Source: Xanthobacteraceae bacterium (GTDB lineage: Bacteria; Pseudomonadota; Alphaproteobacteria; Rhizobiales; Xanthobacteraceae). From it: a DNA stretch of 47,735 bases. Location: assembly GCA_019745775.1 (NCBI GenBank), contig JAIESR010000035.1:1-47735 (forward strand). Direction: 5' to 3'. This document shows, one piece after another, positions 4,986 through 40,882 of this stretch; position 1 is the first letter of the stretch, and every line of letters starts with the position of its first letter. The notes below the pieces were generated by a model. That model did no database searches. It was not told where the DNA came from and saw only the letters and a list, made by a program, of their open reading frames with translations. The translations under genes and the position numbers were made by a program.

Positions 4986-5126
4986 GAGCGCGCGGATGCG
5001 ACGTCGGACGGCGGCGGCGGCAGGACGGATCGAATTGGTCGCAAGGCGCACGGCGGTTCGAAAACGGGCACAAAACCAGCGCGCTTGATTACAGCCGCCG
5101 CCTGCCTTAAATGCTGCCCTCGGACC

Positions 5127-5201
5127 GGGCGCTTAGCTCAGCGGGAGAGCGTTCCCTTCACACGGGAGAGGTCGTAGGTTCAATCCCTACAGCGCCCACC
5201 A
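5127..5201 (+). tRNA. tRNA-Val (anticodon CAC)
   Basis: A complete 75-nt cloverleaf. The acceptor stem is GGGCGCT/AGCGCCC; the D arm GCTC/GAGC; the anticodon stem TTCCC/GGGAG closes the loop TTCACAC, so the anticodon is CAC. The T arm is GTAGG-TTCAATC-CCTAC. The terminal CCA is encoded. Its 3' half, from 5153, is repeated exactly at 9926 and 20003 and in decayed form at 18036, marking it as the integration target of the elements that follow. Confidence 0.97.
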
Positions 5202-5203
5202 TT

Positions 5204-5672
5204 GAACCGCTGCTGGTGCCGGGTTTTCGGCGTCTCTCCCCTTCCCACTTCGGCAACTCAAAACGGAACGCAACGGGAAATCGGCAATTCGACCCGTGGA
5301 AAATCCGTGCGCTTTTTTCTGCGGATTTGTTCCGTGGTGATCGTTCGCGTTTGTTCACGGGGTGTCAATCTGTGGTCCGTTCTCACGAAAGGCCCACACG
5401 TAGATGCCGCCTGCTGATTCCTCCAACACCCACTGTTTAACTCTTTCGTCTCACGACGGATAAGCACTGGGTCCCTTGGGGGTGCACGTCATCATCTGAA
5501 GGCAAATGGCCGCAGACGACTGTCGAACAGGGACAGCGTCCGCCAGGCGGACGCTGTCCCTGTCCTTCGTTGACCCCTGCGGGATTCCCTTGATGATGGC
5601 CGTCGTACCCCATCGGATCGTGATCGGCTTCGTTCCGAAGCCACGCGTTGGCTCAGACCCCGAGGTTCGATA
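5204..5672. other. Island left flank, no gene, contains a long palindrome
   Basis: About 470 bp between the tRNA and the first island gene. I see no convincing protein in any frame. The first ~200 bp is comparatively A/T-rich with a TTTTTT run near 5313. The only clear structure is the palindrome at 5527-5563. Confidence 0.5.
5527..5563. repeat. Perfect 18-bp inverted repeat with 1-nt centre
   Basis: The arms ACAGGGACAGCGTCCGCC and its exact reverse complement are separated by a single A at 5545. It is too tight for a normal terminator loop unless the central bases stay unpaired, and no T-run follows. It might be a protein-binding palindrome or an end of a lost element. It lies 110 bp upstream of the first gene of block A. 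Confidence 0.8.
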
Positions 5673-6707
5673 ATGGAATTCGGCATCTTCGACCACGTCG
5701 ATCGAACCGGCGCACCACTCCACGAATACTACGAGCAGCGTCTTAAGCTTGCCGAAGCCTATGATCGCGCCGGCTTCTATTGCTATCATGTTGCCGAGCA
5801 TCACTTTACGCCACTGGGTATGGCGCCGTCGCCGAGCGTCTACCTGTCGGCCGTCGCGCAACGGACCCGTCAGCTCCGCTTCGGTCCACTGGTCTATCTG
5901 CTGCCGCTCTATCATCCACTCAGGCTGATCGAAGAGATCGGCATGCTCGATCAGATGAGCGGCGGGCGTCTGCAAGTCGGGGTCGGGCGCGGCATCTCCC
6001 CGCTCGAGGTCGGCTACTACGGGCAACATCCCGACCGTACGCAGGCGGTCTACGAGGAAGCGCTCCAGGTGCTCCGGAAAGGCCTGACCAACCAAATCTT
6101 GAGTTTCGAGGGACAATTTTTTTCGTATCGGGACGTCCCGATGGAGATCACGCCGATTCAGCGGCCGCATCCGCCATTGTGGATGGGCGTCAAATCAGTC
6201 GCCAGTGCCGAGGCGGCCGCGCGCGACAACATCAACATCGTCTGTCTGATGAGTGCGTCCGACATGCGCTCCCGCGCCGATCGCTACCGTGCGGTGTGGC
6301 GGCAACACCATCCCGATGCGGACACCGAGCCGAAGGTCGGATTATCGCATTTCATCGTGGTTGCGCCCACCGACCAGGAGGCGCTCGATATTGCGGCGCG
6401 AGCCTATGAGCGGTGGCACACGAACTTCCATTATCTCTATCGACTGCATGGACGTGATCCTGTCCAGGGGGTACGCCCTCCAGAGTTCAATCAGCTCATT
6501 GAGACGGGCCAAGGCATTGCGGGATCTCCGGCGACGGTTACCCAGTTCCTCCGCGCGCAAGTGGAGGTTTCGGCCGTCAACTATCTTGTCGGTCAGTTTT
6601 CCTTCGGCGATATGTGTTACGACGAGGCTGGTCGTTCGGTCGAGCTGTTCGCACGTCACGTCATTCCGGCGTTGCGCCAAACCGAGCCTGTGGCGGCTGC
6701 CGGTTGA
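5673..6707 (+). CDS. LLM class flavin-dependent oxidoreductase
   Basis: This 344-residue protein has the luciferase-like monooxygenase barrel fold. The start is typical (MEFGIFDHVDRTGAPLHEYYEQRL) and is followed by AEAYDRAGFYCYHVAEHHF, where luciferase-family proteins place the active-site His-rich segment. LRFGPLVYLLPLYHPLRLIEEIGMLDQMSGGRLQVGVGRG at about residues 66-105 is the classical flavin-phosphate-binding region. Such enzymes use FMNH2 and O2 to oxidise a substrate, sometimes with F420 instead. The substrate cannot be read from sequence. It leads block A, 50 bp before the aldolase gene, and probably shares its transcript. Confidence 0.85.
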   Translation: MEFGIFDHVDRTGAPLHEYYEQRLKLAEAYDRAGFYCYHVAEHHFTPLGMAPSPSVYLSAVAQRTRQLRFGPLVYLLPLYHPLRLIEEIGMLDQMSGGRLQVGVGRGISPLEVGYYGQHPDRTQAVYEEALQVLRKGLTNQILSFEGQFFSYRDVPMEITPIQRPHPPLWMGVKSVASAEAAARDNINIVCLMSASDMRSRADRYRAVWRQHHPDADTEPKVGLSHFIVVAPTDQEALDIAARAYERWHTNFHYLYRLHGRDPVQGVRPPEFNQLIETGQGIAGSPATVTQFLRAQVEVSAVNYLVGQFSFGDMCYDEAGRSVELFARHVIPALRQTEPVAAAG

Positions 6708-6757
6708 TGCTTCGCTTGCACGAACTTTCAGGAAGGCCGGACTACCGGAGTAAAAAG

Positions 6758-7507
6758 ATGATCGACGACAAACTCGCCAAGGACCTCGACGAACTCGCCG
6801 TGGGTTGCCGCGTGCTGCAGGCACACGGGCACGGCGACAAGACTGTCGGGCACCTCTCGCTCCGCGATCCGCACGCGCGCGGCTTTTGGCTGAAGCGGGC
6901 ACAGGCGGGGTTGGACGAGATCATGTCACCCGCGGATTTTGTTCTGCTGGATTTCAACGGCAACCGGCTTCACGGTAAGGGTGGCATACATTTCGAGTGG
7001 CCGATCCACAGCGAGATATATAACTCCCGCCCCGAGATAAACTCCGTCGGACATACGCATCCGTTCTACGCCAGCCTCTTTGCGGCGCTTGACGTACCGC
7101 TCAAGGCGATCGCGCACGAAGCCTGTTATTTCGAATCCGACGTGCCGCTATATCGAGGCACGACCAAAATCCTTGATAGTCCTCAGCTCGGACGCGATCT
7201 CGCCGCGGTGCTCGGGCGGCATCATGCGGTCTTCATGCAGAACCACGGCATCACGTTCTGCGGAGCCTCGACGGCGGCGGCCGTCATGTTCGGCATCATT
7301 CTGGAGAAGGCCTGCAAGCAGCAGATCACGTTGGCTTCCTATGGCGCCCCGATGGTGGAAACCCCGCGCGAGGAGGTCGTCGACAAGGCGCGGAGCTTGA
7401 CCAGACCGGCCCTGTTGAAAGACTTCTTCGACTACTATTGTCGACAGCTCGCGACGATCGAGAAGCTCGGGTTTCCGGCCTGGTTTGGAGGCGAATTGCC
7501 CGGCTGA
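6758..7507 (+). CDS. Class II aldolase/adducin family protein
   Basis: The 249-residue product matches the zinc-dependent aldolase fold of fuculose- and ribulose-phosphate aldolases. HTHPFYASLF holds two of the metal-binding histidines and MQNHGITF the third. An acidic residue (EACYFESDVPLY) follows in the usual region. The start ATG at 6758 has GGAG 8 bases upstream; the longer frame from 6614 overlaps the previous gene and is not needed. It probably catalyses a retro-aldol cleavage or a decarboxylation in the same pathway as the upstream flavin oxidoreductase. Substrate unknown. Confidence 0.85.
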   Translation: MIDDKLAKDLDELAVGCRVLQAHGHGDKTVGHLSLRDPHARGFWLKRAQAGLDEIMSPADFVLLDFNGNRLHGKGGIHFEWPIHSEIYNSRPEINSVGHTHPFYASLFAALDVPLKAIAHEACYFESDVPLYRGTTKILDSPQLGRDLAAVLGRHHAVFMQNHGITFCGASTAAAVMFGIILEKACKQQITLASYGAPMVETPREEVVDKARSLTRPALLKDFFDYYCRQLATIEKLGFPAWFGGELPG

Positions 7508-7568
7508 ACGGGATGGCCGGCCGCCTCTCGCGGCTTGAGACATTGGAGCTTCGCTGAGAGGTGGGGCT

Positions 7569-8417
7569 TTGGCAAAGCATTTGACCGGAGAATCTCGAGG
7601 AGCGCTTCGCACGCTGACGGTGCTGCGGGCATTGAATAAGCACAACGGCGCTACCATAACCGAGCTTCATGCCGCCACGCATATTTCGCGCCCCGCGCTC
7701 TACCGCATCCTGGCCGCGCTTGGCATGGCCGGGTACGTCGCCCGGACGACGGAAGGCGCCAAATACCTGCTGACCTCCTTGGTCAGGACGCTGAGCGATG
7801 GCTACCGCGACGATCACTGGATCTGCGAGGTGGCGACACCGGTCATGCACGAACTGCAAAAGACCATTTTGTGGCCAACCGATCTGGCCACACTTCACAA
7901 CTACGAAATGCACCTTCGCGACACGACCCGCCGGCGAAGTCCATTCGTCATCGATCAGGGGGCGGTCGGCGCACGCCTGTCTATGTTGCAGACAGCATCG
8001 GGGCTAGCTTATCTCGCCCATTGCGGGGATGACGAGCGCAAGACGATTTTGAACGTCCTGCGGCGACCGGGCAATCCAGACTACGCTTTCGCGTGCCAGC
8101 CCTCACGCGTCAGCCGGCTTCTTCAGGAGGTCCGGGCGAAAGGCTACGGCTGGCGGTACAAGCACAAGTACCGCACGCAGGGTAGCGCACGAACGGGGTC
8201 GATCGCCGTTCCTATTTACTTCGACCGGCGCGTGGTCGCGACGGTAGGGATGACGTTCATCGCTCGCGCGCTCACCGTAAATGACGCCGCGAGCCGGCAC
8301 CTCAACAATTTGAAGACCGCGGCGCGAGAAATCGAGAGACGCCTCAAGGCGCCGCCCAGCGCTGCGTCGACTGCCGGACGATCGACCAACTTCGATAGCC
8401 GGCCAGCGTCGCGCTGA
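7569..8417 (+). CDS. IclR-family transcriptional regulator
   Basis: The 282-residue protein starts at a TTG codon (7569) preceded by GAGAGGTGGGG. It has an N-terminal winged helix (LRTLTVLRALNKHNGATITELHAATHISRPALYRILAALGMAGYV, about residues 14-58) and a C-terminal IclR effector domain with SMLQTASGLAYLAH and GSIAVPIYF. IclR proteins bind small aromatic or aliphatic acids and control nearby catabolic genes. The position inside block A, between the aldolase and the Bug receptor on the same strand, makes these its likely targets. The closest well-known relatives by pattern are MhpR-type activators; this is not certain. Confidence 0.88.
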   Translation: MAKHLTGESRGALRTLTVLRALNKHNGATITELHAATHISRPALYRILAALGMAGYVARTTEGAKYLLTSLVRTLSDGYRDDHWICEVATPVMHELQKTILWPTDLATLHNYEMHLRDTTRRRSPFVIDQGAVGARLSMLQTASGLAYLAHCGDDERKTILNVLRRPGNPDYAFACQPSRVSRLLQEVRAKGYGWRYKHKYRTQGSARTGSIAVPIYFDRRVVATVGMTFIARALTVNDAASRHLNNLKTAAREIERRLKAPPSAASTAGRSTNFDSRPASR

Positions 8418-8575
8418 ACCCAAGGAAGCCATAAGAGTTCGTTACTGGCTGGCGTCCGGCCAGCGGACGCGCAGCAATTTCATCATTGACCGCTCCCCCC
8501 TCGCGACACCTTGATCGAGACCAATGTAGCTTCGCTGACCTGCTGAGCTGAAGAAACGAGCGCTGGAAGGACCCA

Positions 8576-9571
8576 ATGAAACCCAAGAGGCTGGGCTTTG
8601 CCACGTTTCTCATGACTGTCGGCATCGTGGCCTGCTTGCCGGCGTCGCAACCGGCGCACGCGCAAGACAGCTATCCAAGCAGGCCTATTCGCGTCATCGT
8701 CCCCTACGCGCCCGGCGGCTACAACGACATCGTAACCCGGCTGATTGCAGATCGCCTCAGCCCGGTCTTAGCGACGCCGTTCATCGTGGAGAACAGGCCC
8801 GGTGGAGGAGGCAAGGTTGGCGCCGCGGCGGTCGCGACGGCGCCACCCGACGGCTACACGTTGCTCTTCGGCGGCAATACGAATTTTGTGTTGAATCCCT
8901 TGATGGAGCGCAACATTGGGTACGACCCCGTCAAGGGCTTCGTCCCAATCGCGCTCGTCGGACATTTTCCGATGATCGTCATCACGCCGAAGGGGCGCGC
9001 TGTCGACACGTTTCCAGATCTGCTGACGAAAATAAGGAGTTTGCCTGCCGGAGCGGTCTATGGGACTGCCGGCGTCGGCACACCCACCCACCTCGCCGGG
9101 GCTTGGCTCGCCCGTCTTGCGGGCGCAAAAGCAGCGCCCGCGCACTATCGAGGCGGCGCGGCAATTCTGGCCGACGTAATCAACGGACACCTCGACTATT
9201 CGCTCGCAACGCTCGCAGTGGCGACGAACCGGGATCGTATCAACATTGTTGCTTCGGTGACGCACGAGCCCATTCCGGGCCTGACCGGCGTTCCGGCGAT
9301 TGTCGATGCCGGCCTACCCCAATTCAGAAAGATCGACTGGATCACCTGGAACGGCTTCTTCGCTCCTGGCAACACCCCCCGACCAATCGTCGAAAAGCTC
9401 AATGGCGCGATCTACCAGGTCTTGAAGGACGAATCGATCAAAATGCGCTTCGCCGAGCTCGGCGGGTGGACACTCGAGACCCGCTCACCCGACGAGATCG
9501 CAATCTTTATTCGCCGCGCGATCGAAACCATGCGGGAGCCTCTTCGTGAGCTCGGAGTAATTCCAGAATAG
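8576..9571 (+). CDS. Bug-type tripartite tricarboxylate transporter substrate-binding protein
   Basis: This 331-residue periplasmic receptor begins with a signal peptide ending at PASQPAHAQ-DSYPSRPIRVIVPYAPGG. The last segment is the Bug hallmark. Further family marks are FIVENRPGGGGKVGAAAVATAPPDGYTLLFGG and PVKGFVPIALVGHFP, and the C-terminal lobe GNTPRPIVEKLNGAIYQVLKDE. Bug proteins bind carboxylates such as citrate, nicotinate or aromatic acids and feed TctAB permeases. No TctA or TctB gene is nearby. AAGGACCCA precedes the ATG. It closes block A and presumably binds the substrate of the upstream enzymes. Confidence 0.9.
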   Translation: MKPKRLGFATFLMTVGIVACLPASQPAHAQDSYPSRPIRVIVPYAPGGYNDIVTRLIADRLSPVLATPFIVENRPGGGGKVGAAAVATAPPDGYTLLFGGNTNFVLNPLMERNIGYDPVKGFVPIALVGHFPMIVITPKGRAVDTFPDLLTKIRSLPAGAVYGTAGVGTPTHLAGAWLARLAGAKAAPAHYRGGAAILADVINGHLDYSLATLAVATNRDRINIVASVTHEPIPGLTGVPAIVDAGLPQFRKIDWITWNGFFAPGNTPRPIVEKLNGAIYQVLKDESIKMRFAELGGWTLETRSPDEIAIFIRRAIETMREPLRELGVIPE

Positions 9572-9616
9572 GGTCTCGATCGGCAGTGTGATCGCGGAAA
9601 CGTCCTACTCGACGGC

Positions 9617-9690
9617 TTATAGGTCGGCGTGCAGCTGATCGCAGACGAAGATCAAGATGTTGGGGGGCAAGCCATGCTTGCCATTTGTAT
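9617..9690 (-). pseudogene. Remnant of a sulfatase N-terminus
   Basis: On the minus strand a short frame reads LPPNILIFVCDQLHADL before a stop at 9617. It closely resembles the first strand and metal-binding Asp of sulfatase-family enzymes (PNILFIMCDQLRADY). Nothing of the rest of such a protein follows. It is too short to be sure. Confidence 0.35.
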
Positions 9691-9821
9691 TGTCGGAGTG
9701 GATCGCGCAATTGACAAGGCTTGACACAAACAACCCGAGCGTTCCTGAACAATTGCATACATAGGCGCAAGTTTGCACCCGTCCTGGCGCACAAATAATG
9801 GATCGCCCAAGAGGGCGCGAA

Positions 9822-9925
9822 AGGGGAATTTCTTCCGGCAAAAGAGCGTCCCAAACTCGCGCTGGAGAATCCGTGGAAACCAATTCTGACGCTATGCAAG
9901 TCATTGAAATCGTTCGGATGAGTAA
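9822..9925 (+). repeat. Conserved arm upstream of the tRNA-Val fragment, copy 1
   Basis: About 104 bp strongly similar to 19901-20002, with its last ~60 bp also similar to 17977-18035. Shared words include GCTGGAGAATCCGTGG and GCAAGTCATTGAA. It directly abuts the tRNA fragment at 9926. Read in one frame it encodes ESVE, six variable residues, then QVIEIVRM, continuing into the tRNA fragment as NPFTRERS and stop. Confidence 0.75.
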
Positions 9926-9976
9926 TCCCTTCACACGGGAGAGGTCGTAGGTTCAATCCCTACAGCGCCCACCATT
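9926..9976 (+). repeat. attachment-site-like copy of tRNA-Val 3' half (exact, 51 bp)
   Basis: Identical over 51 bp to 5153-5203, from the 5' side of the anticodon stem through CCA and two bases more. This is the usual extent of a tyrosine-recombinase attachment core in a tRNA gene. It separates blocks A and B. The 5' half of the tRNA is missing, so it is not a functional tRNA gene. Confidence 0.85.
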
Positions 9977-10717
9977 CCGCATGATCCTTTAATGAGCGGG
10001 CTGCTGCCCCCCTGCTTCTGCGTCGGGAGTCCGCTTCACACTCGGCTCCGGGCATACAGCTGCATGCAGCAAGTGACGCGAAGGGCCACCTGCTGCCATT
10101 CGCGCTGAAAAGCATGCTTGCGCTGCACAAGGTCGCTTCCACCCAAAGCGCGACATCGCACTTGGTCACATCGACGGCAAGCTTACCACCCTCGACCGTG
10201 TCCGGGATTGGCGAGACCGCATCCGTTGGAAGTCGGAGTTTGGGAGGTCAACTCCTTGCCGCGGCTCACACTCGCCGGACCGCTCTGGAGCGCGGGGCGC
10301 GTGCACAGCCACGCGCTCCCGCCGGTGCAGGTTGACCTTCTCGCGATAGTCGATCGCATTCCAACCGGAGATGCGGATCGTGCTCTCCTTGCCCTGAATT
10401 TCCAGGCTCAACTTGGCGGCGGCAGGCAGCTCGACGACCGCGACGAAGTCGTGGCCTTGCTGAAACACATTGATCGGTCGGGAGCGAACTAATCGGGGCA
10501 TTCTTGATTTTTTGTGCGCGCCAGGTGTCACGCGCCAGGCATGCCTATTCCCCTACGTCCGGCGAGCACCGAAAATCGCATTCGCATCAGAGAGCTGGCA
10601 GGCCGGGATGTCGTCACACGCCGCCGAGTTCATCTCCTTGAACTTGACCGGTTCTTCTCATCACCGCAGGAGCTCAGGGGATAGGCATGCGCGCCAGCCC
10701 CCTTGTTGGTCGGTGAT
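9977..10717. other. Block A/B junction, decayed sequence
   Basis: About 740 bp without an intact gene. It contains the small heat-shock protein remnant at 10290-10501 and otherwise open but unconvincing short frames. The base composition is mixed, as expected of a degraded junction. Confidence 0.5.
10290..10501 (-). pseudogene. Remnant of a small heat-shock protein (Hsp20 / alpha-crystallin)
   Basis: A frame of ~70 codons reads RSRPINVFQQGHDFVAVVEL, then LSLEIQGKESTIRISG and REKVNLHRRERV. This matches the start of an alpha-crystallin domain (…VFQQGDDFVAIIELPGV…, IRISGKK, RRERVSGTFDRT). After RRERV the expected FDRT…LP strand is lost and the frame becomes Arg/Pro-rich, so a frameshift is likely. 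The PG of the ELPG motif is altered to PA. It is probably non-functional. Confidence 0.55.
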
Positions 10718-11641
10718 CTATTTCTGCATCACTTTATTTCGTCGCGACACGGTTTCTTGCGCTTCGCTCAATATCCATTTCCTGAAAATAACAAGCGGAA
10801 GCTCATGACGCTTGTGTTGGGTGATGGCCAAGCAATAAGGCCGCTCGCTCTGTAGCTCCAAGCTGAAGGGAACCACGAGACGACCTTTCTCGATATCCTC
10901 GAGGAGGAGAAGTGGTTGGCCGAGCACAATACCGGCGGCTTCTCGCGCTGCCTGATAAGCCAGAGAGGAATTCTCAAACCACAAGCCGCTGTCGATAAAA
11001 TGGCTCTTGACTCCCGCAAGCTGAAACCAGGCTCGCCAGTGCGTCACTTGCTTGGGCGAATATAGGAGTGTTTCTCCAATGATATCGTTCGGATTACGCA
11101 GCGGTTTCGACCTTGCGAGATACTCGGGACTGCAGACCGGCATAAATGTCTGATCAAACAGGACCTCGAAATCGATGCCAATCGGATTGCCATGAGAAAT
11201 AACAATACCTATGTCCATGTCGCTCTGCGTAAAGTCCGCCGCTTGGAGCGACGCCATGAGTCGAATGACAATGTCAGGGTGTTGCGCCCTGAAGCGTCGC
11301 AGCCGGGGCATGAGCCATTCAACAGTAACTGTTGGCAGAGCCCGCAACGACAATCCGACACCCTGCATGCTTGAATTCAGTACGTCATTTGTTGCGGCGT
11401 CGATCGCATCAAACGCGGCGGACACAGCTTGCAGGTAACGACGTCCCGTTTCAGTCAGCCGCAAACCACGGCCCATGTTTATGAAAAGGCTGGATCCGAG
11501 GTGTGCCTCAAGCTGGCTGATCTGCCGGCCAACGGCCCCCGGCGTCACGGACAATTCCTTCGCCGCTTTTGATAGGCTCTCGTGGCGGCCCGCAGCCTCA
11601 AAAGACTTCAGTCCGTTCAGTGAGGGAAATCTGTGCCCCAC
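10718..11641 (-). CDS. LysR-family regulator (GcvA-like)
   Basis: The 307-residue protein has an N-terminal winged helix-turn-helix with PSLNGLKSFEAAGRHESLSKAAKELSVTPGAVGRQISQLEAHLG (residues 5-48) and a periplasmic-binding-like effector domain. SVTPGAVGRQI and the YLQAVSAAFDAIDAAT linker are typical of the GcvA/AmpR branch of LysR regulators. It is divergent from the catabolic operon starting at 12022, with 380 bp between them, and is the obvious candidate to control it. The frame is intact and ends next to the decayed junction. Confidence 0.88.
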   Translation of the reverse strand: MGHRFPSLNGLKSFEAAGRHESLSKAAKELSVTPGAVGRQISQLEAHLGSSLFINMGRGLRLTETGRRYLQAVSAAFDAIDAATNDVLNSSMQGVGLSLRALPTVTVEWLMPRLRRFRAQHPDIVIRLMASLQAADFTQSDMDIGIVISHGNPIGIDFEVLFDQTFMPVCSPEYLARSKPLRNPNDIIGETLLYSPKQVTHWRAWFQLAGVKSHFIDSGLWFENSSLAYQAAREAAGIVLGQPLLLLEDIEKGRLVVPFSLELQSERPYCLAITQHKRHELPLVIFRKWILSEAQETVSRRNKVMQK

Positions 11642-12021
11642 GCGGGCGTTCCTTCGTTTTGAGTTTTTCGCACGCCTAGGCGGAGCGAATTAGCATTGTC
11701 ATGAGAATTGTAACACGATTACTACCAACGAAGGAAGAACACGCGCAGTCAGTGCCTATCAGCAGGAAGCGCTTGAGACGCAACGTCCATGCCGATCCCA
11801 TCACATCATGCCTTGACGTCGAAAGCCTGGCTTAATCAGAGTGATAAAACATCGGCCGACCAGTCTGTCGCTTCGCGCCTAGCCGTCTTGCTCTGGCGAG
11901 TGCTTCCCAGGCGTCACCGGACCTATGGGGATAGTCATGACCACTGTTGGCCGGCCGGCGGGACGTTGTCGCAGGCTTGTGCTTATTCGATGGACGCCAG
12001 CTACGTCGCAGGGAGAGCAGG
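11642..12021. promoter_or_regulatory. Divergent intergenic region between the LysR gene and catabolic operon
   Basis: About 380 bp with no convincing gene; an open frame extends the thiolase upstream to 11947 but has no family similarity. The promoters of both divergent units and the LysR operator must lie here. The A/T-richer stretch near 11690-11730 is the best place to look. No operator could be assigned by eye. Confidence 0.45.
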
Positions 12022-13134: not shown

Positions 13135-13137
13135 GCC

Positions 13138-13551
13138 ATGACATACACTAAGCCCTTACCCACGATCGACGTCTGGAACCGCCCATTTTGGGATGCGTGC
13201 AAAGAGCAGCGCCTCATTGCCCAGAAATGCAACACGTCAGGTAAAGTTTGGTTTCCGCCGAGTCCTGTATCTCCCATCACGCGCGACCATGATTGGAGAT
13301 GGATAGACCTAACCGGCGCCGGGCGAATCGTCTCGTGGGTCGTCATGCATCAGAAGTACTTCTCCGGATTCGCTGGTGAGATTCCTTATCTGGTGGCTCA
13401 GGTTGAACTCGACGAAGGGCCGATGTTCATCACCAATATCGTCAATGCAGGACGAAACAGCGTCGCAATAGGCGCGCGTGTGCAGGTGGTATTTGATCCC
13501 ATCACCGATGAAATCTCTCTTCCGAAATTTCGATTGTTGGAGCGCGCATGA
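13138..13551 (+). CDS. DUF35 / OB-fold partner of the thiolase-like protein
   Basis: The 137-residue protein shows the DUF35 order: a rubredoxin-like segment (WDACKEQRLIAQKC…FPPSPVSP) and then an OB-fold acyl-CoA-binding domain (WIDLTGAGRIVSWVVMHQKYFSGFAGEIPYLVAQVEL). The zinc ribbon normally has CxxC and CPxC; here these read CNTS and SPIT, so only one ligand remains and zinc is unlikely to be bound. It starts 3 bp after the thiolase stop and its own stop overlaps the next start. It is the likely obligate partner of the thiolase-like protein. Confidence 0.85.
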   Translation: MTYTKPLPTIDVWNRPFWDACKEQRLIAQKCNTSGKVWFPPSPVSPITRDHDWRWIDLTGAGRIVSWVVMHQKYFSGFAGEIPYLVAQVELDEGPMFITNIVNAGRNSVAIGARVQVVFDPITDEISLPKFRLLERA

Positions 13552-14333
13552 GCGAGCAAGAACTGATCGTTGTCGAGGAACGCGACACGCACGCGGTGAT
13601 TCGAATCAATCGACCCGAGAAGAGGAATGCGATGAACCAAGCCGCACGCGCCGGCATGCTTGCGGCACTGCATAAAATTCGCGGACGCTTCCCAGTCGCG
13701 GTGCTCACGGGGACCGATAAGAGTTTCTGCAGCGGGATTGACCTAAGAGAGCGGCATGATCCGCATGCCAATCTGGACCTCATCAATGATCCCAAAACCG
13801 CGTGGAACGAGGTCAACATCGCCATCCGAAACCATCCCGCCATCTTTATTGCCGCGGTGAATGGCATCGCACTTGGCGGCGGCGTCACGTTGATTAATGT
13901 GTGCGATTTGGCCATCGCCGCGGAAAGCGCGCAGATGGGCATGCCCGAGATGGGCTTTGCGACCTATCCAGGCCTTGCCGGCCCCGCGACGCAGCTTTCG
14001 CTGCCTCGTAAGCGCGCCGCGTGGATGATCTTGACCACTAACCGTATCGACGGGGTGACGGCTGAGCGCTGGGGTTTGGTCAACAAGGTTGTGCCGGATG
14101 ATGAACTGCTTGCCACTGCTGAAGAGCTTGCCCGTCAAGTCAGCCAGTTTGATGTGGTATGCCTGGAGCAAAGCAAACAGGCATTGGATCAACTCCCAAT
14201 CGTCATCGATTGGCGCGAGGCCTTTTCCCTGGGAAGCCGTGTCAATGAGCGGATCCGTAGCCAAACCTCAACGCATACAAAGGCTCTAGAAAAGTTCAAC
14301 CACGGCGAACGAAACCCTGGACAGGGTCGGTGA
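13548..14333 (+). CDS. Enoyl-CoA hydratase/isomerase family protein
   Basis: This 261-residue crotonase-fold enzyme overlaps the preceding stop by ATGA. It shows RINRPEKRNAMNQAAR, the oxyanion-hole segments SFCSGIDLRE and NGIALGGGVTLINVCDLAIAAE, and the MPEMGFATYPGLAG segment. It would hydrate an enoyl-CoA to a beta-hydroxyacyl-CoA, giving a substrate for the neighbouring thiolase/DUF35 pair. PGLAG replaces the common PGAGG, so isomerase or hydrolase activity is possible; I could not assign both catalytic glutamates with certainty. Confidence 0.88.
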   Translation: MSEQELIVVEERDTHAVIRINRPEKRNAMNQAARAGMLAALHKIRGRFPVAVLTGTDKSFCSGIDLRERHDPHANLDLINDPKTAWNEVNIAIRNHPAIFIAAVNGIALGGGVTLINVCDLAIAAESAQMGMPEMGFATYPGLAGPATQLSLPRKRAAWMILTTNRIDGVTAERWGLVNKVVPDDELLATAEELARQVSQFDVVCLEQSKQALDQLPIVIDWREAFSLGSRVNERIRSQTSTHTKALEKFNHGERNPGQGR

Positions 14334-15487
14334 ACGGCATGGAAGTATCCGTGCGCATATGTGGGTGCGACAATGCGTCGAATGTCGACCTACCTTTATC
14401 ATCGTTCACGGTGGTAGAAGTTTGCACGGCGTCAAGCTCGCTGCCGCAGCGCATTGCGGTGGCAATGGCTGGAAAGATTGCCCGCGACCTAGGTGCGCAT
14501 GTTTTCGCGGTCTATGGTCCTGACGGCGACCCACTTGGCGCGGTAACCGTAGAGCCATATGAACGGTCGCCACGTGAAGCCAAGGCGCTTTCCACTTTTC
14601 TGAACAGCGGCAAGGAGGCAATCCTCCTTTCCAGGCATGAGCGCGAGGATTGCGAGCGTATTGCCGACATCGTCACTCATGCAGATGCTTTGCTTATATC
14701 AACAGGTGTTGCTGAAAACATCGCTCTGAAGGCGCCGGTAACGGTCGACCTCGCCGTGTTGCCCCCGAATATTTCCACAGCCGTTCCTCCGAGTGAACTG
14801 GGATTGTTCGCTCTATCGGGCATGCTCGACCTCGTCGGTACGGCATCGCGGGAGCCGCTCATGCTTGGCGGGCACCAAGCTGCGTACTCAGCTGGCTGCG
14901 CAGCGTTCTCCGCAATGATGACGGGCTTTGCCGAGAGAGAATTTCAAGGGCGTGACGCTCACCTCGTAGTCGATATGTTGAATGTTCTGATGTGGCTGAA
15001 TTGGAAGGCGCTTGCGGCAGCGGAGATCACGCCTAGCGAGATTGTTAGCCGCGAGGGCGAGGATGCACCGTGGCGTACAGTGCCTTGCGCGGATGGCCAT
15101 GTCGCGGTCGTTTATAACGACCGGGATTTACCGCAAATCTTCGACTTGCTCGCGGATGATGACGGCCTGCCAGGGGGGCAAGCTTATTTGAAATCGCGCG
15201 CCACTGACAGCCGGCACGATTTGATGGAAGCCATCAAGAGATGGTGCGCGCCACGCACCCGACGGCAAATAACCGATGCTGCGCAACGGCGCAGCATCCC
15301 ATTCGGACCTGTGCTTCTGCCGCATGAGTTGCTGTGCGACCCGCAGCTTATTTTCCGGCAGAGTTTTGCCTCGGTCGTCACCCCAGGCAGTGATGCGCAA
15401 ATCCCCGTACTGCCCTTGCGTTGGAATGGAAAGCCTGTTCATGCGCCACTCAATCCAACAGCGGTTTCCGTCGAGGCGCCACGATGA
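14330..15487 (+). CDS. Class III CoA-transferase subunit (CaiB/BaiF family), atypical
   Basis: The 385-residue product starts at GTG 14330, overlapping the hydratase stop. It has the CaiB/BaiF layout but a divergent N-terminal part. The middle segment PLMLGGHQAAYSAGCAAFSAMMTGF (about 176-200) aligns with the family helix that carries the catalytic Asp. Here the Asp position appears to be occupied by His182/Gln183. The C-terminal region (DLMEAIKRWCAPRTRRQITDAAQRRSIPFGPV) is typical. A second CaiB gene overlaps it, so the two may form a heteromeric enzyme like BbsEF, with this as the non-catalytic partner. That is an inference. Confidence 0.8.
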   Translation: MNGMEVSVRICGCDNASNVDLPLSSFTVVEVCTASSSLPQRIAVAMAGKIARDLGAHVFAVYGPDGDPLGAVTVEPYERSPREAKALSTFLNSGKEAILLSRHEREDCERIADIVTHADALLISTGVAENIALKAPVTVDLAVLPPNISTAVPPSELGLFALSGMLDLVGTASREPLMLGGHQAAYSAGCAAFSAMMTGFAEREFQGRDAHLVVDMLNVLMWLNWKALAAAEITPSEIVSREGEDAPWRTVPCADGHVAVVYNDRDLPQIFDLLADDDGLPGGQAYLKSRATDSRHDLMEAIKRWCAPRTRRQITDAAQRRSIPFGPVLLPHELLCDPQLIFRQSFASVVTPGSDAQIPVLPLRWNGKPVHAPLNPTAVSVEAPR

Positions 15488-16650
15488 AACCGCAACGTGC
15501 ACTGACCGGATTCACTGTGCTCGATCTCGGCATTATGACAGCGGGGGCCGCGACGTCCGCTTTGCTCGCAGACGCTGGCGCGCGCGTCATCAAAATTGAG
15601 TCCGAACGCTATCCGGACCCGTTCCGCAAATGGTCCGGTGCCGGCCTTACCGGACGCGGTAGCAGCGCCGCAGCGTTCGATTTTACCAATAGGAATAAAA
15701 TGGGCGTGTCGTTGGATTTAAAGACGCAGCGTGGACGTGAAGCATTTCTAAAGTTATCGAAGAACGCCGATCTTGTGGTGGAAAATTTTCGTCGAGGCGT
15801 CCTGGAAAAACTCGGCCTTGGCTTTGAGGAGTTGAGAAAACAAAATCCCCGCATAGTCCTTGCGTCATTATCGAGCCAGGGAGATGTCGGGCCGGAGGCT
15901 CACTACAAGTCCTTCGGCTCGACGCTCGAGGCCATGGGTGGACTTGCTGCCATCACCGGCTACGCCGGGGAAAATCCGCAAGTATCGGGAAAGAGCCTCA
16001 ATTTTCCGGATCAAGCTGTCAGCATCTTTGCGTTTGGCGCCATTATAGCCGCGCTTCTCGCGGCCAAGCGAAAGGGCCAGGGCGAACATATCGATATATC
16101 ACAACGAGAGCTCATTCTTTATATGGTCGGCGAATACATCGCTGCGGAATCCGTCCGTCACGGATCGGCAGTAGGCGAGTTGTGTCGAGGCAACGCGGAT
16201 GCGAGCGGTCGCTTTCAAGGATGCTTCCGGACGGCCGAACGCCGATGGGTTGCGATCACTGCTCCGAATGAAACGGCTCGCAACGAGCTTGCGTCAATTT
16301 GCGGGGCAAATTCACCAGGCGACTCAAACTCACAACGCGACTTGCTGGCGGCGGTGACCACGTTCGTCGCACAATCGCGCTATGAGATCGTAGCGGAAGT
16401 CTTCGGTAAGGCCGGCGTCTCAGTCACACGGGTGCTCGCCGCCAACGAAGTCCTCAACAACCTCAAGAATGCTCACTGGCACGCCATTATGCCAGGTCCT
16501 GCAGGAGGTCTCGTCAAAGGCGTCCCGTTTCTCAACCGAATTTCGCCGTTTTGCATCGAACGTCCAGCGCCAAAGCTTGGCGAGCACAGCGACTCCATCC
16601 TAGCGGAAATTAACGAGCATCCTTCCACGACATCAACAGACCTAGCGTGA
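15484..16650 (+). CDS. Class III CoA-transferase (CaiB/BaiF family), catalytic type
   Basis: The 388-residue protein starts at ATG 15484, overlapping the previous stop (ATGA). Motifs: LTGFTVLDLGIMTAGAATSALLADAGARVIKIE at the N-terminus, LVVENFRRGVLEKLGLGFEELRKQNP, then MGGLAAITGYAGENP and NFPDQAVSIFAFGAI. Asp176 sits where oxalate CoA-transferases carry the nucleophilic aspartate. GQGEHIDISQ follows as usual. It probably activates the imported acid by moving CoA from succinyl- or acetyl-CoA. It lies directly before the operon's solute receptor. Confidence 0.85.
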   Translation: MKPQRALTGFTVLDLGIMTAGAATSALLADAGARVIKIESERYPDPFRKWSGAGLTGRGSSAAAFDFTNRNKMGVSLDLKTQRGREAFLKLSKNADLVVENFRRGVLEKLGLGFEELRKQNPRIVLASLSSQGDVGPEAHYKSFGSTLEAMGGLAAITGYAGENPQVSGKSLNFPDQAVSIFAFGAIIAALLAAKRKGQGEHIDISQRELILYMVGEYIAAESVRHGSAVGELCRGNADASGRFQGCFRTAERRWVAITAPNETARNELASICGANSPGDSNSQRDLLAAVTTFVAQSRYEIVAEVFGKAGVSVTRVLAANEVLNNLKNAHWHAIMPGPAGGLVKGVPFLNRISPFCIERPAPKLGEHSDSILAEINEHPSTTSTDLA

Positions 16651-16693
16651 TCTCCAGGTGAATTCAGAGCAGGGCAGTCTCAAGGAGAAATTA

Positions 16694-17731
16694 ATGGTCA
16701 GATTGATGGCTGCACGCGTTGGCTATGTTGCCGTAGGACTTGTCGCGACCCTTGCGGCTAACGCTGCACCGAGCCGCGCGGACGAATTCTATCGGGGGAA
16801 GCAGGTCTCGGTATATATAGGTTACGGCCCAGGCGGCACTTACGACACCTACGGTAGACTATTGGCGCACTATATGAGCCGATATGTTCCCGGCAATCCC
16901 ACGTTTGTGCCGCGAAACATGCCGGGAGCCGGCAGCAAGTTGCTCGCCAGCTATCTTTATAGCGCTGCGCCTAAGGATGGCAGGGAATTCGGGGTTATCT
17001 GGAGCGGTCTTATACTCGATTCATTGCTGGATGAATCGCGCAGCGAGAAATTCGATGCCAGCCGTTTTAGCTGGATTGGCAGCATGAACAAATCCACCCG
17101 TGGTGGGGTCGTTTGGCACACGGCGCCGGCTCAGTCGCTGGAGGATGCCCTGCACAAGACAATGGTCGTTGGTTCGACTGGTGCGAGATCAGGCCTCGGA
17201 CTTTATCCGTTGCTGCTCAACCGGCTAATCGGTGCCAAATTCAAGATCGTCGGTGGTTACAAGGGGTCGACCGACATGAGCTTGGCGATGGAACGCGGCG
17301 AGCTCGATGCTATTGTCGGTATCGATATTGCTAACATCCTGAATGTCAAACCCGATTGGTTTGCAGCAATGAAGGCCAAGGTGTTTCTGCAACTTAGTCT
17401 TCAAAAAGATCCACAATTTCCACACGCGCCTTTGGTGATGGACTTCATCTCGAAGGCGGAAGACAGGCAATTCATGAAATTGTTCCTTGCAGCGGATGAT
17501 CTCTCCTATTTGTTCATAGCTCCGCCTTCCATTCCAGCGGATCGTCTCAGAGTGCTACGCGAGGCGTTCGTGGCGGTAACGAAGGATCCCGCCTTTTTGG
17601 TGGAGGCTAAGAAGCGCAATGTTGAGGTCAAGCCGACCAGCGGCGAGGCCATTGCGAGCTTGGTAAGTGATATTTATTCGACACCTGCGTCCTTGTTGGC
17701 GCAGGCTCGGGCGCTCGTGAATAAGCAATAG
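16694..17731 (+). CDS. Tripartite tricarboxylate transporter receptor-like protein
   Basis: This 345-residue periplasmic receptor begins at ATG 16694, with AAGGAG upstream; an in-frame GTG at 16658 is less likely. The signal peptide ends near AAPSRA-DEFYRGKQVSVYIGYGPGGTYDTYGRLLA. The opening FYRGKxVxxxIGxGPGGTYD and VPGNPTFVPRNMPGAGS mark the divergent receptor branch that also includes the protein at 23790. No TctA/TctB genes follow. As last gene of the operon it probably captures the acid that the CoA-transferases activate. Confidence 0.88.
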   Translation: MVRLMAARVGYVAVGLVATLAANAAPSRADEFYRGKQVSVYIGYGPGGTYDTYGRLLAHYMSRYVPGNPTFVPRNMPGAGSKLLASYLYSAAPKDGREFGVIWSGLILDSLLDESRSEKFDASRFSWIGSMNKSTRGGVVWHTAPAQSLEDALHKTMVVGSTGARSGLGLYPLLLNRLIGAKFKIVGGYKGSTDMSLAMERGELDAIVGIDIANILNVKPDWFAAMKAKVFLQLSLQKDPQFPHAPLVMDFISKAEDRQFMKLFLAADDLSYLFIAPPSIPADRLRVLREAFVAVTKDPAFLVEAKKRNVEVKPTSGEAIASLVSDIYSTPASLLAQARALVNKQ

Positions 17732-17976
17732 ACGCAGTTTTGAGGCGCATCGGCATCATCCGTAAGGCCTGCGGGTTGCGGCGATCCCGCTTACATAATC
17801 TCGCACCAATGGCCTCGACAACCAGAGAGTCGGTAAGCTCCGGGCGAACAGCAGATATCGATGTTACCGTGGTGATGTTCGTCGTCGCCGAAATCACAAC
17901 TTCTGCTTTTGGAAAGCTGCCGGATGCACACGTCTCAATGCTGCATTTGTTCAGGTCGGCTAAGGGTCATTCGCGC

Positions 17977-18035
17977 GAATCCGTGGAGTTTGGTTTTCAT
18001 ACCACGCAAGTCATTGAATTTATTAAGATGGTGAA
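17977..18035 (+). repeat. Conserved arm upstream of the tRNA-Val fragment, copy 2 (short)
   Basis: About 60 bp similar to the ends of the arms at 9822 and 19901, without gaps. It shares GAATCCGTGGA, GCAAGTCATTGAA and ends in GAA before the tRNA fragment. In the same frame it reads ESVE, six residues, QVIEFIKMV, then NPFTR. Confidence 0.7.
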
Positions 18036-18080
18036 TCCCTTCACACGGGACGTCACCCTCCCCTCGCAAAGCGCCCACAC
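18036..18080 (+). repeat. Decayed copy of tRNA-Val 3' half
   Basis: TCCCTTCACACGGGA (18036-18050) and AGCGCCCAC near 18070-18078 match the ends of the attachment core, but the middle has diverged (CGTCACCCTCCCCTCGCA). It lies 6 bp before a complete second tRNA-Val gene. It is probably an old, no longer recombining junction. Confidence 0.7.
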
Positions 18081-18086
18081 ATTGAA

Positions 18087-18161
18087 GGGCGGTTAGCTCA
18101 GCGGGAGAGCGTTCGCTTCACACGCGAGAGGTCGTAGGTTCGATCCCTCCACCGCCCACCA
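18087..18161 (+). tRNA. tRNA-Val (anticodon CAC), second isodecoder inside the island
   Basis: A 75-nt gene with encoded CCA. Acceptor stem GGGCGGT/ACCGCCC, D arm GCTC/GAGC, anticodon stem TTCGC/GCGAG around TTCACAC (anticodon CAC). Compared with the gene at 5127, one acceptor pair and one anticodon-stem pair are changed on both sides, so pairing is kept. The T stem GTAGG/CCTCC has one mismatch. It could be functional or slightly decayed. Confidence 0.85.
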
Positions 18162-18185
18162 TTCCACTGCGTGTCGAATGCTCGG

Positions 18186-19010
18186 CTAGTTCTTCGACGC
18201 TATCGCGCCGTTTTGCTTGATGATGGCAGCACCTTCCTGACTTTTCACAAAGGCGATGAATGCATTCACCGATTCTGTTGGCGATTTTCCGACGACCAAA
18301 AACGCATCTCGCGTTAGACGGTACTTGCCGGACAAGACACTGGCCTCATCGGCCGAGGCGCCGTTGAGCGAAACAGCTTTGATCTTGCCTTTGCTTTGCG
18401 CGACAAACGTCGCGCTCGTCATGCCGATCGCTCCTTGCGTTTCTGCCAGAGCGCGGGCCATATCGCCCGCGCGCGCCAGAGATTGCGTTCCTTCAGGGAT
18501 TTTCAGATTCTTGAAGCATGCGATTCCATCGCGCACGACTTCCATATCCACTTCGCTCTCGGGCCGAACGAGAACAACAATTGCCAAGTCGGAGCCGCCG
18601 ACCTCCTTCCAATTGCGGACCTTGCCTTCGTAGATCGAGCAGATTTGCTCATCCGTCAGGCCCTTGACGGTGACGGCCTCGTGAACGCCGAACAGCACCG
18701 GCGCCATCGCGATACGATGCACCGTCATTCCGCGTTTGGTGATATCGCCGACGTTGAGCCCGTGGCTCGCCATCGCGATATCAATCCTGCCAGCCGAAAG
18801 GGCTTCAAAACGAGCTTTCGTCCCGAGACCTTTGCCGACTTGTACGGTGATTCCGCGCTTGGCGGAAAATGCCTTGCCCAGGGCCTCAACCAACGGAGCT
18901 GTTCCGGTCGAGCCGTCTATCGAGATTGTCTGCTGAGCTGACGCGCTACCGGCAGCGCCCAACGCAACACCGATGACCAGTGCCTTCAATGACCAGAAGC
19001 CTTTGAACAT
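18186..19010 (-). CDS. PstS-like periplasmic substrate-binding protein
   Basis: The 274-residue product starts at the ATG complementary to 19008-19010, preceded by GAGGGGAGG. The signal peptide ends at GSASA-QQ. The mature part opens TISIDGSTGTAPLVEALGKAFSAKRG and shows GLGTKARFEALSAGRIDIAMASHGL, DEQICSIYEGKVRNWKEVGGSD and a C-terminal AFIAFVKSQEGAAIIKQNGA. These fit the PBP_like/PstS group that binds phosphate or other oxyanions. No PstCAB genes are present. It is divergent from a TauE/SafE exporter, so sulfonate- or sulfur-oxyanion binding is also possible. Confidence 0.82.
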   Translation of the reverse strand: MFKGFWSLKALVIGVALGAAGSASAQQTISIDGSTGTAPLVEALGKAFSAKRGITVQVGKGLGTKARFEALSAGRIDIAMASHGLNVGDITKRGMTVHRIAMAPVLFGVHEAVTVKGLTDEQICSIYEGKVRNWKEVGGSDLAIVVLVRPESEVDMEVVRDGIACFKNLKIPEGTQSLARAGDMARALAETQGAIGMTSATFVAQSKGKIKAVSLNGASADEASVLSGKYRLTRDAFLVVGKSPTESVNAFIAFVKSQEGAAIIKQNGAIASKN

Positions 19011-19090
19011 GGCATTCCTCCCCTCAGGAATGTTGATGGGATATGATATCGAGCGAGAAGCCGGTGCTGCAATGCATGCCGGAGGAGGAA

Positions 19091-19876
19091 ATGGACTTTC
19101 TAGTAATTGGCATCGTGGCGTTCGCCGCCTCGGCGCTGACGTTCTTTTCAGGCTTTGGTCTCGGCACGATTTTGTTGCCGGCGTTCGCGCTGTTCTTTTC
19201 GGCACCGGCTGCAGTCGCGGCGACGGCCGTCGTGCATCTGCTAAACAACCTGTTCAAAGGCACGTTGATATTCCGCACGGCGCACTGGCCTACAGTGCTC
19301 CGGTTCGGAATTCCGGCTGTGCCCGGAGCAATCGCTGGCGCGTTGCTGCTGGCCTACCTGGGCGAAATGCCGGCGTTCCGCTGGAGCGCTTTTGGCCGCG
19401 AATTCGTCCCGTCTACCGGTGGCATCATTATTGGCCTGGCATTGTTCGTGCTTGCCGTGCTGGAACTGGTGCCGTGGTTTCAAAAGTTGTCCGCGCCGGC
19501 CCGGTGGGTGCCCCTCGGTGGACTGCTTATGGGCTTTTCCGGGGGCCTTACCGGCCAGCAAGGCGCATTGCGTTCCATCTTCCTTTTGAAGACCGGTCTC
19601 GACGCGCCACGTTTCATTGCGACGGGTACGATGGTCTCAATCTTTGTCGACGTTTCGCGCTTGCCAACCTATTTCGCATCATTCACGCGTGGCACGCTGG
19701 ACCTTGCCGGGCGTGAGGGCATGTTGGTGGCGGTCGGTACGGCTTGCGCGTTCGCAGGGGCGTGGGTCGGCGCAAGCTATTTCAAGAAGGTGACCATCGA
19801 GGTGGTGCGCTATCTGGTCGCTGCGTTGATGCTCCTGATCGGCACAGGACTGATTTTCGGAGTACTCGGCACCTAG
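19091..19876 (+). CDS. TauE/SafE (TSUP) family membrane transporter
   Basis: The 261-residue polytopic protein has about eight hydrophobic segments. The start at 19091 (MDFLVIGIVAFAASALTF) is chosen because GGAGGAGGAA lies directly upstream; a longer frame from 19043 adds a hydrophilic extension. The duplicated TSUP pattern is visible in FFSGFGLGTILLPAFALF and LLMGFSGGLTGQQGALRSIFL. Members export sulfite, sulfoacetate or other organic anions. It is divergent from the PstS-like receptor, 80 bp apart; the two make up block C. Confidence 0.85.
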   Translation: MDFLVIGIVAFAASALTFFSGFGLGTILLPAFALFFSAPAAVAATAVVHLLNNLFKGTLIFRTAHWPTVLRFGIPAVPGAIAGALLLAYLGEMPAFRWSAFGREFVPSTGGIIIGLALFVLAVLELVPWFQKLSAPARWVPLGGLLMGFSGGLTGQQGALRSIFLLKTGLDAPRFIATGTMVSIFVDVSRLPTYFASFTRGTLDLAGREGMLVAVGTACAFAGAWVGASYFKKVTIEVVRYLVAALMLLIGTGLIFGVLGT

Positions 19877-19900
19877 GTTTGGAAGGTTTCCTTTGCCCTT

Positions 19901-20002
19901 AGGGGAATTCCTTCCGCAAAGAGTGTCTCAAACCTGCGCTGGAGAATCCGTGGAAATTGGTTTCGAAGATGTGCAAGTCATTGAAATTATTCAGATGGGG
20001 AA
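19901..20002 (+). repeat. Conserved arm upstream of the tRNA-Val fragment, copy 3
   Basis: About 102 bp similar to 9822-9925 through its whole length. In frame it reads LGEFLPQRVSQTCAGESVE, six residues, QVIEIIQM, and continues in the tRNA fragment as NPFTRERS and stop. Confidence 0.75.
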
Positions 20003-20049
20003 TCCCTTCACACGGGAGAGGTCGTAGGTTCAATCCCTACAGCGCCCAC
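20003..20049 (+). repeat. attachment-site-like copy of tRNA-Val 3' half (exact, 47 bp), right end of island
   Basis: Identical to 5153-5199. It ends at CCCAC, where the original has CCCACC. This is the last copy and so the likely right boundary of the island series. The sequence after it shows no further repeats. Confidence 0.85.
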
Positions 20050-40777: not shown

Positions 40778-40882
40778 CCTTCTCCTCTTCCATCCGGAAC
40801 ACCGCAAGCTTGTTGTTGCCGCCGGGGGCCTTTCTTGGCGGTCGCACGGATGATCCCGTAGATCACACCCGGCTGCGAGAGG
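40778..40882 (-). pseudogene. Duplicated 3' end of the propeller-like gene at 42950
   Basis: About 100 bp align with 42953-43060. The minus strand reads LSQPGVIYGIIRATAK, matching RSQPGVIYGIIRATAK near the end of the intact gene, then shifts frame and returns as FRMEEEK against FRMGEKK. Everything upstream of this C-terminal tail is missing. Same orientation as the intact gene, so the two form direct repeats around the patatin-like gene. Confidence 0.75.

Follow-up and report, generated by a model that had tools for sequence, protein, structure and literature searches.

Probable tandem array of CIME-like islands without an integrase behind a tRNA-Val(CAC) gene

How do multi-gene metabolic modules, and tiny toxin-antitoxin blocks in relatives, come to pile up behind a single tRNA gene when they encode no recombinase themselves? 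The question is raised by a stretch of 47,735 nucleotides from a Xanthobacteraceae bacterium (GCA_019745775.1, contig JAIESR010000035.1), referred to here as the window. The target gene is a tRNA-Val(CAC) (Val1, 5127-5201, + strand; ARAGORN, Rfam 65.5 bits), within which the core starts at 5153. Exact copies of its 3' half are present at 9926-9976 (51 nt; match of 49 nt, E 4.7e-19) and 20003-20049 (47 nt, E 6.1e-18), both on the + strand in the orientation of Val1 and both beginning at the base equivalent to 5153. These E-values, obtained within the organism's own genome, show that the two copies are not due to chance.

The original prediction counted the 3' half four times in one orientation, including a decayed copy at 18036. 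Val1 and the two exact copies stand, but the sequence at 18036-18050 (+ strand) agrees with the Val1 3' half only over 15 exact nucleotides and in 20 of 51 ungapped columns. This does not demonstrate a decayed 3' half, and the sequence makes better sense as an anticodon-arm core next to a second gene for tRNA-Val. This second gene, overlooked earlier (Val2, 18087-18161, + strand; ARAGORN, Rfam 60.9 bits), is a complete tRNA-Val(CAC), 92% identical to the first, and lies 36 nt past the 15-nt arm core. A comparison of stem pairs in the anticodon and T stems shows that Val2 has one swapped pair (C-G to G-C) in the former and one mismatch in the latter.

The copies delimit three blocks on the + strand, whose GC content (0.566-0.600) compares with 0.680 left of the tRNA. 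Block E1 (5202-9925, GC 0.600) encodes, by Pfam, a luciferase-like monooxygenase (5673-6707), a class II aldolase (6614-7507), an IclR regulator (7569-8417) and a TctC receptor (8576-9571). Block E2 (9977-18035, GC 0.566) encodes a LysR regulator (10718-11641, - strand), a thiolase-like protein (11947-13134), an OB-fold ChsH2-like protein (13138-13551), an enoyl-CoA hydratase (13548-14333), two class III CoA-transferases (14330-15487 and 15421-16650) and a protein without a family match (16658-17731). Block E3 (18162-20002, GC 0.575) encodes a PstS-like binding protein (18186-19205, - strand) and a TauE-like permease (19043-19876). The Pfam and NCBIfam matches of the tested genes in these first three blocks fall to metabolic, transport and regulatory functions, and the gene at 16658-17731 falls outside any family. 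No transfer genes were found among the 13 larger E1-E3 genes scanned with Pfam.

A shared right end, also overlooked earlier, precedes each of the three copies (9926, 18036 and 20003). The sequence on the 9928 side is 79% identical to that on the 20005 side over 106 bp, and the 18038 side is 79% identical to the 20005 side over 61 bp. The E1 and E3 right ends (attR modules W1, 9822-9925, and W3, 19901-20002, both + strand) carry an arm motif at -68 relative to the core, while in the E2 right end (W2, 17977-18035, + strand) this motif is weak (6 mismatches at -68) and AAGTCATTGA is retained. With at most 4 mismatches, the arm motif occurs at -66 to -70 in 12 of 20 junctions, including two of the three ends in the window, and four more junctions, E2 among them, have it at -68 with 5-6 mismatches; 26 of 4000 control windows reach 4 mismatches. 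A left-arm motif with 2 mismatches is found in E1 (5294-5311, + strand) at a distance of 139 nt from the core, and in 12 of the 43 junctions examined it lies 138-141 nt from the core; none was found for E2, E3 or several small blocks of relatives.

The right-end motif at its fixed distance marks integrase-less blocks in relatives G010, G002 and G174 and in the independent record L050, as well as the right end of intact tRNA-Val integrases, which supports the proposal that the blocks are cassettes of a larger family sharing one end. L050 shows the window's arrangement again: a right end is followed by the arm core and Val2, then by cargo, a further right end and a core. Could the tRNA region instead have been duplicated, or have undergone homologous recombination, to give the repeats and Val2 with no site-specific insertion at all? 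Val2 is indeed a complete gene near Val1 in the array, but the copies, which start at one anticodon-stem base, have no 5' half, they are preceded by the shared end, which bears no relation to what lies upstream of the tRNA itself, and L050 and other genomes hold different cargo between the same marks, so that this origin is most improbable.

The integrase expected at such ends is present in relatives, where six intact genes (334-569 codons) lie directly before a tRNA-Val(CAC) core. In these relatives the integrase gene occupies the right end and continues into the core, just ahead of which the arm motif lies. Four of the six are among the 12 arm-motif junctions; the motif is absent from the other two (G053 and G318) and from junctions in G200 and G017. 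Other integrase families use the same site in G200 and at the locus of G383, where the integrase beside the core is assigned to another family by our own profiles. An Rfam search gave nothing credible for the second target of sister integrases.

In agreement with the original prediction, no integrase is visible among the blocks. Thirteen PF00589 matches were found in the organism's genome, none of them on the window's contig. Absence cannot be proved by this search on its own, as two tRNA-Val integrases tested score weakly with PF00589 (25.8 and 36.7 bits); a profile drawn from 16 members of the integrase family in question also gives no match in the window at E 1e-3. A search for a recombinase elsewhere in the genome that targets this tRNA had been suggested, and a family-specific query found none there or in seven congeners. 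An integrase on contig C108 was considered as the missing enzyme and rejected, as in our reading it ends in a stop codon followed by a fragment of another tRNA. The right ends were likewise considered as relics of integrase coding sequence and this was rejected for the window: an open frame spans W1, W3 and the L050 end L050a into the core, but the window's right ends are not recognised by the family profile and show no third-position excess. A composed 35-aa peptide from this frame has no match in plasmids.

Comparison of the locus with relatives supports serial site-specific insertion at one tRNA-Val gene, as first suggested. Among the relatives' stretches that extend leftward beyond the tRNA, most match the left flank, with its coiled-coil-like gene up to the tRNA (3714-5126, + strand; for example G007, 72% over 1.3 kb, and G002, 76% over 1.6 kb). 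The right side differs: the sequence 5325-47735 is found in only one of 27 relatives' stretches, and blocks E1-E3 were not found at the tRNA-Val locus of the relatives examined. Two congeners, G005 and G004, look like the anticipated empty sites. The DNA right of the array (20050-47735, GC 0.626) shows no correspondence to the right-hand flank of the relatives. Its segment 42950-43770 has a counterpart to the right of the tRNA in G002. The relatives' right-hand neighbour genes are located on contig C108, where a search turned up no core; the native right junction is absent from the window's contig.

The most probable reading of 5202-20049, with a probability of about 0.7, is a tandem array in which three or more CIME-like islands accreted at tRNA-Val(CAC) through a tyrosine integrase. 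The core of this integrase would comprise the anticodon arm and 3' half of the tRNA; all three blocks retain its right attachment end, and E1 also a left arm, but none has the integrase. E3 or a predecessor would have joined first, at the anticodon arm, carrying the complete Val2 just inside its left end. E2 and E1 would then have entered at the arm left of E3, each restoring the 3' half of Val1. Against this reading stand the failure of the family profile to recognise the window's right ends, the lack of a left arm in E2, E3 and several small blocks of relatives, the weak W2 arm, the intact integrases and other junctions that lack the arm motif, the native right junction missing from the contig, and the use of the site by other integrase families. 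Misjoining of blocks at the 47-51-nt repeats is a conceivable artefact in a draft genome of 147 contigs with exact repeats, yet very unlikely, since L050 independently repeats the order of right end, arm and Val2, and a single contig holds multiple copies of the core in G096, in G108 and in G200.

Under the accretion reading, loss of the integrase gene and its action in trans are equally possible; connecting the modules with one named integrase family and a pair of attachment motifs makes "lost" versus "in trans" testable. A rather unlikely alternative is a non-autonomous family that never had an integrase: short cargo modules with a minimal right end (~60-105 bp), which a tRNA-Val integrase, resident or visiting, would join in trans. 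Consistent with this, right ends in the window and in L050 extend about equally far before unrelated cargo (W1/W3 to -106/-104, L050a with both to -87/-88), very small blocks carry such an end (~1.0 kb in G010, where an HTH protein accompanies a HigB-like toxin; 1.3 kb in G174), and the right end is more widely shared than the left arm. On the other hand, G096 demonstrates integrase loss with a relic, the sole such case, in which the 3' part of the gene lies at exactly the equivalent place (profile E 2e-24). Moreover, no present helper is known, given the negative genome and congener searches above, and erosion alone may account for blocks that lack a left arm.

A tandem CIME-like array is itself of an already known kind. 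CIME tandems formed by accretion have attachment ends, lack integration and transfer genes and are stacked at one site (PMC5704250), as are E1-E3; here, however, both ends are recognisable in E1 only (right ends in all three) and one block has a complete tRNA, and "CIME-like" refers to structure and does not imply an ICE or IME origin. The Dehalococcoides ssrA islands (PMC3146451) are also tandem, with niche-metabolism cargo between repeats of an RNA-gene 3' end and a shared motif directly before the repeats, and 15 have no integration module; they use a serine recombinase and tmRNA, whereas the window points to a tyrosine integrase and tRNA-Val, the target not being ssrA. The Islander database pairs intact tRNAs with displaced 3' fragments and includes arrays of at least two (125) and at least three (4) members (PMC4383910); its arrays require an integrase per member, of which the window has none, and for its tRNA fragment per member the window has the full 3' half for E1 and E3 and 15 nt for E2. 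The Bradyrhizobium symbiosis ICEs share the tRNA-Val target but are of very large size and carry a border integrase (PMC9239051, PMC9174649), unlike the window; in G383 the core-adjacent integrase is the one assigned above to another family. Tycheposons similarly have metabolic cargo beside a tRNA gene but encode a tyrosine recombinase (PMC10872708), which the window lacks.

The exact right-end pattern matches in 4 of 391 family genomes; beyond the window's three sites it occurs at L089, beside tRNA-Lys, and at L087 and L088, where no tRNA was called in the locus. A contig scan for the right end returned three stretches, of which L050 is meaningful and L051 and L052 are without the GAGAATCCGTGGAAA part at 2 mismatches. 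At least 120 viral-contig stretches with the exact pattern were left out of the evidence.

What the locus suggests beyond known island arrays is a target-replacing island marked by Val2's swapped anticodon-stem pair. Tycheposons, too, carry a complete tRNA. In relatives G096, G254 and G259, a tRNA with the swapped pair stands after a native gene that is interrupted within its anticodon arm, which suggests an island that replaces its target. Tentatively, one island class may destroy the target tRNA-Val(CAC) and substitute its own complete gene, whose compensatory stem swap would preserve the tRNA but alter the integrase core, making the replacement immune to reintegration; later islands would rebuild the native gene, leaving two tRNA genes, one free to decay, as the T-stem mismatch in Val2 would suggest. 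If true, this would clearly exemplify an island that rewrites a housekeeping gene, with the host surviving insertion and followers shut out. An island-borne replacement tRNA-Val was not found among the titles and abstract openings searched, a scope mostly outside subscription papers. By RNA folding, the cloverleaf is the best structure in one of five tRNAs folded (Val1).

The window contains two complete tRNA-Val(CAC) genes, Val1 (5127-5201), the target of the insertions, and Val2 (18087-18161), the second of which was overlooked in the original prediction. Both are called by ARAGORN and Rfam, on which all tRNA calls here rest; RNA folding alone gives a cloverleaf for Val1 only. The 3' half of Val1 recurs exactly at 9926 (51 nt) and 20003 (47 nt), as predicted. 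The sequence at 18036, previously read as a decayed third copy of this half, is identical to Val1 over 15 nt and matches in 20 of 51 columns, and that reading was wrong. All three copies start at the base equivalent to 5153, the first of the core, and a search of the rest of the genome gave just two more distant matches to the Val1 3' half (80% and 79% identical). The blocks stacked behind Val1, E1 (5202-9925), E2 (9977-18035) and E3 (18162-20002), lack an integrase, as originally noted.

The three copies have in common the 61 to 106 bp upstream of the core. In a relative (G096), the corresponding right end codes for the final portion of a tyrosine integrase (family profile E 2e-24), and this stretch as a query finds matches in 31 of 391 family genomes; the search for a recombinase elsewhere in the genome, proposed with the original prediction, gave no match to this query in the own genome or its 7 congeners. 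Open frames of the same tRNA-Val integrase family (334-569 codons) stop directly before the tRNA-Val(CAC) core in six genomes (G047, G114, G188, G162, G053 and G318). A short arm motif with ≤4 mismatches is present at -66 to -70 relative to the core in 12 of 20 junctions, and with 5-6 mismatches at -68 in 4 more, and is absent from the remaining G053, G318, G200 and G017; random 150-bp windows from ten of the junction loci reached 4 mismatches in 26 of 4000 cases. The G174 right end was located via the motif itself, and is not independent support. A second motif, AAGTCATTGA, lies near -32 in the window's ends, and a similar AAGATGTTGA near -32 in the intact element of G053. We conclude that the window carries three right attachment ends of the tRNA-Val integrase system. 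Integrase coding is not claimed for them, since the family profile does not recognize it and the differences between the copies fall at codon positions as 56, 33 and 51. An integrase of a different family adjoins the core in G200 (L238, 15520-16932), and more than one integrase family therefore uses the tRNA-Val site.

The left arm motif was derived from the window, G007 and G017. A search for the 16-mer of this motif, CGTGGAAAATCCGTGG, gave 17 sites distributed over 15 of the 391 family genomes; on reading of the loci, these sites comprise 11 left ends after the tRNA-Val(CAC) core, one right end before it (L222), four sites after another conserved sequence for which Rfam gave no identification, and one unrelated site (L219). 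A conserved sequence other than the tRNA-Val core (..GGCCGGC..CCGCACCTTTT) precedes the arm motif in loci L213, L216, L223 and L228, and sister integrases stop before a similar sequence in L292, L293 and L299. The left arm of E1 lies 139 nt past the core with 2 mismatches. An arm at +138 to +141 with ≤3 mismatches is present in 12 of 43 junctions; most of these 12 either defined the motif or were retrieved with it. It is absent from the DNA past 20049, and from E2, E3, G010, G002 and G174, so that the right end is more widely common to the family than the left.

Integrase-less blocks with the shared right end are also present in G010 (about 1 kb, encoding a HigB-like toxin and an HTH protein), G174 (1.3 kb), G002 (3.3 kb from tRNA to core), G096 (8 kb, with both arms and an integrase relic) and locus L050 (two blocks). 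L050 (JALHQZ010000033.1) is filed under a Pirellulales MAG, yet its tRNA-Val locus resembles that of the Xanthobacteraceae family, and the contig is likely misbinned. In G108 (C53, 122753-242673), ∼120 kb separate an intact tRNA-Val from a 3' copy, with a family integrase within and a second left end after.

Many relatives keep the left flank up to Val1. Conservation of the 5-20 kb region, which would have spoken against insertion, was not found: among 27 relatives' stretches, which extend rightward to differing degrees, one (L055, from G002) has >120 bp in common with window 5325-47735, at 42950-43770. The proposed alignment with relatives gave two sites, in G005 and G004, that look empty: the DNA directly past the tRNA is alike in the two (90% over 3 kb), followed by DNA common to other relatives. 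The own-genome counterpart of the relatives' right-hand neighbour region lies on another contig (C108), on which the tRNA-Val core was not found, and the right side of the window is therefore not the relatives' native flank. C108 also carries another integrase followed by an apparent 3' fragment of a different tRNA (L084, 13568-14761). Window stretches 40779-40882 and 42953-43058, 2.2 kb apart, are similar (85-90%), and probably represent related genes.

The array itself is of a kind already known. It fits the idea of cis-mobilizable elements (CIMEs) and accretion (PMC5704250), and a close parallel is seen in the Dehalococcoides ssrA islands (PMC3146451). Tandem tRNA islands have likewise been described (PMC4383910), and Bradyrhizobium symbiosis ICEs also use tRNA-Val as a site (PMC9239051 and PMC9174649). 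The new part is a possible replacement tRNA. Relative to Val1, Val2 has one anticodon-stem pair changed from C-G to G-C (the swap), along with other changes, and one mismatch in the T-stem. The L050 and G233 genes are identical to Val2 except that they do not have this mismatch.

In the order of integration that we infer, E3 or its ancestor would have joined first at the anticodon arm, carrying Val2 at the inner side of its left end, with the native 3' half, of Val1-type sequence, left at its right end (20003). E2 and E1 would later have integrated at the arm, left of E3, each rebuilding the Val1 3' half. This order would explain why the 18036 copy consists of the arm only, why the 20003 copy is of Val1 type despite following Val2, and why Val2 would be free to decay.

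Of the 391 family genomes, 9 contain the swapped arm (≤1 mismatch), the own genome among them, and all were retrieved by the swap itself, so that frequencies of swap-less replacements or of swapped native genes are not derivable from this count. In G096 (C44; L315, 3193-5172), the native tRNA-Val 5' half is truncated within the anticodon arm, with a complete swapped tRNA-Val 1.9 kb on. In G254, a swapped tRNA interrupted by the contig end lies ∼70 nt past the native 5' half, and a 3' half is located close to the beginning of a different contig. In G259, a complete swapped tRNA lies ∼100 nt past a cut 5' half; a second contig carries a further complete gene that is similar, which argues against strict replacement in this genome. 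In G233, a complete swapped tRNA follows the arm core by ∼35 nt, and a separate contig carries a further complete gene (92% similar). The swapped tRNA of G075 is complete, and no cut copy adjoins it within the stretch shown. G378, G379 and G383 have an odd or degraded swapped copy a few hundred nt past tRNA-Val or its 3' half, that of G379 still being called by ARAGORN. In G383 (C1, L341), the tRNA-Val 3' half and the degraded swapped copy lie together, and a complete gene is present elsewhere.
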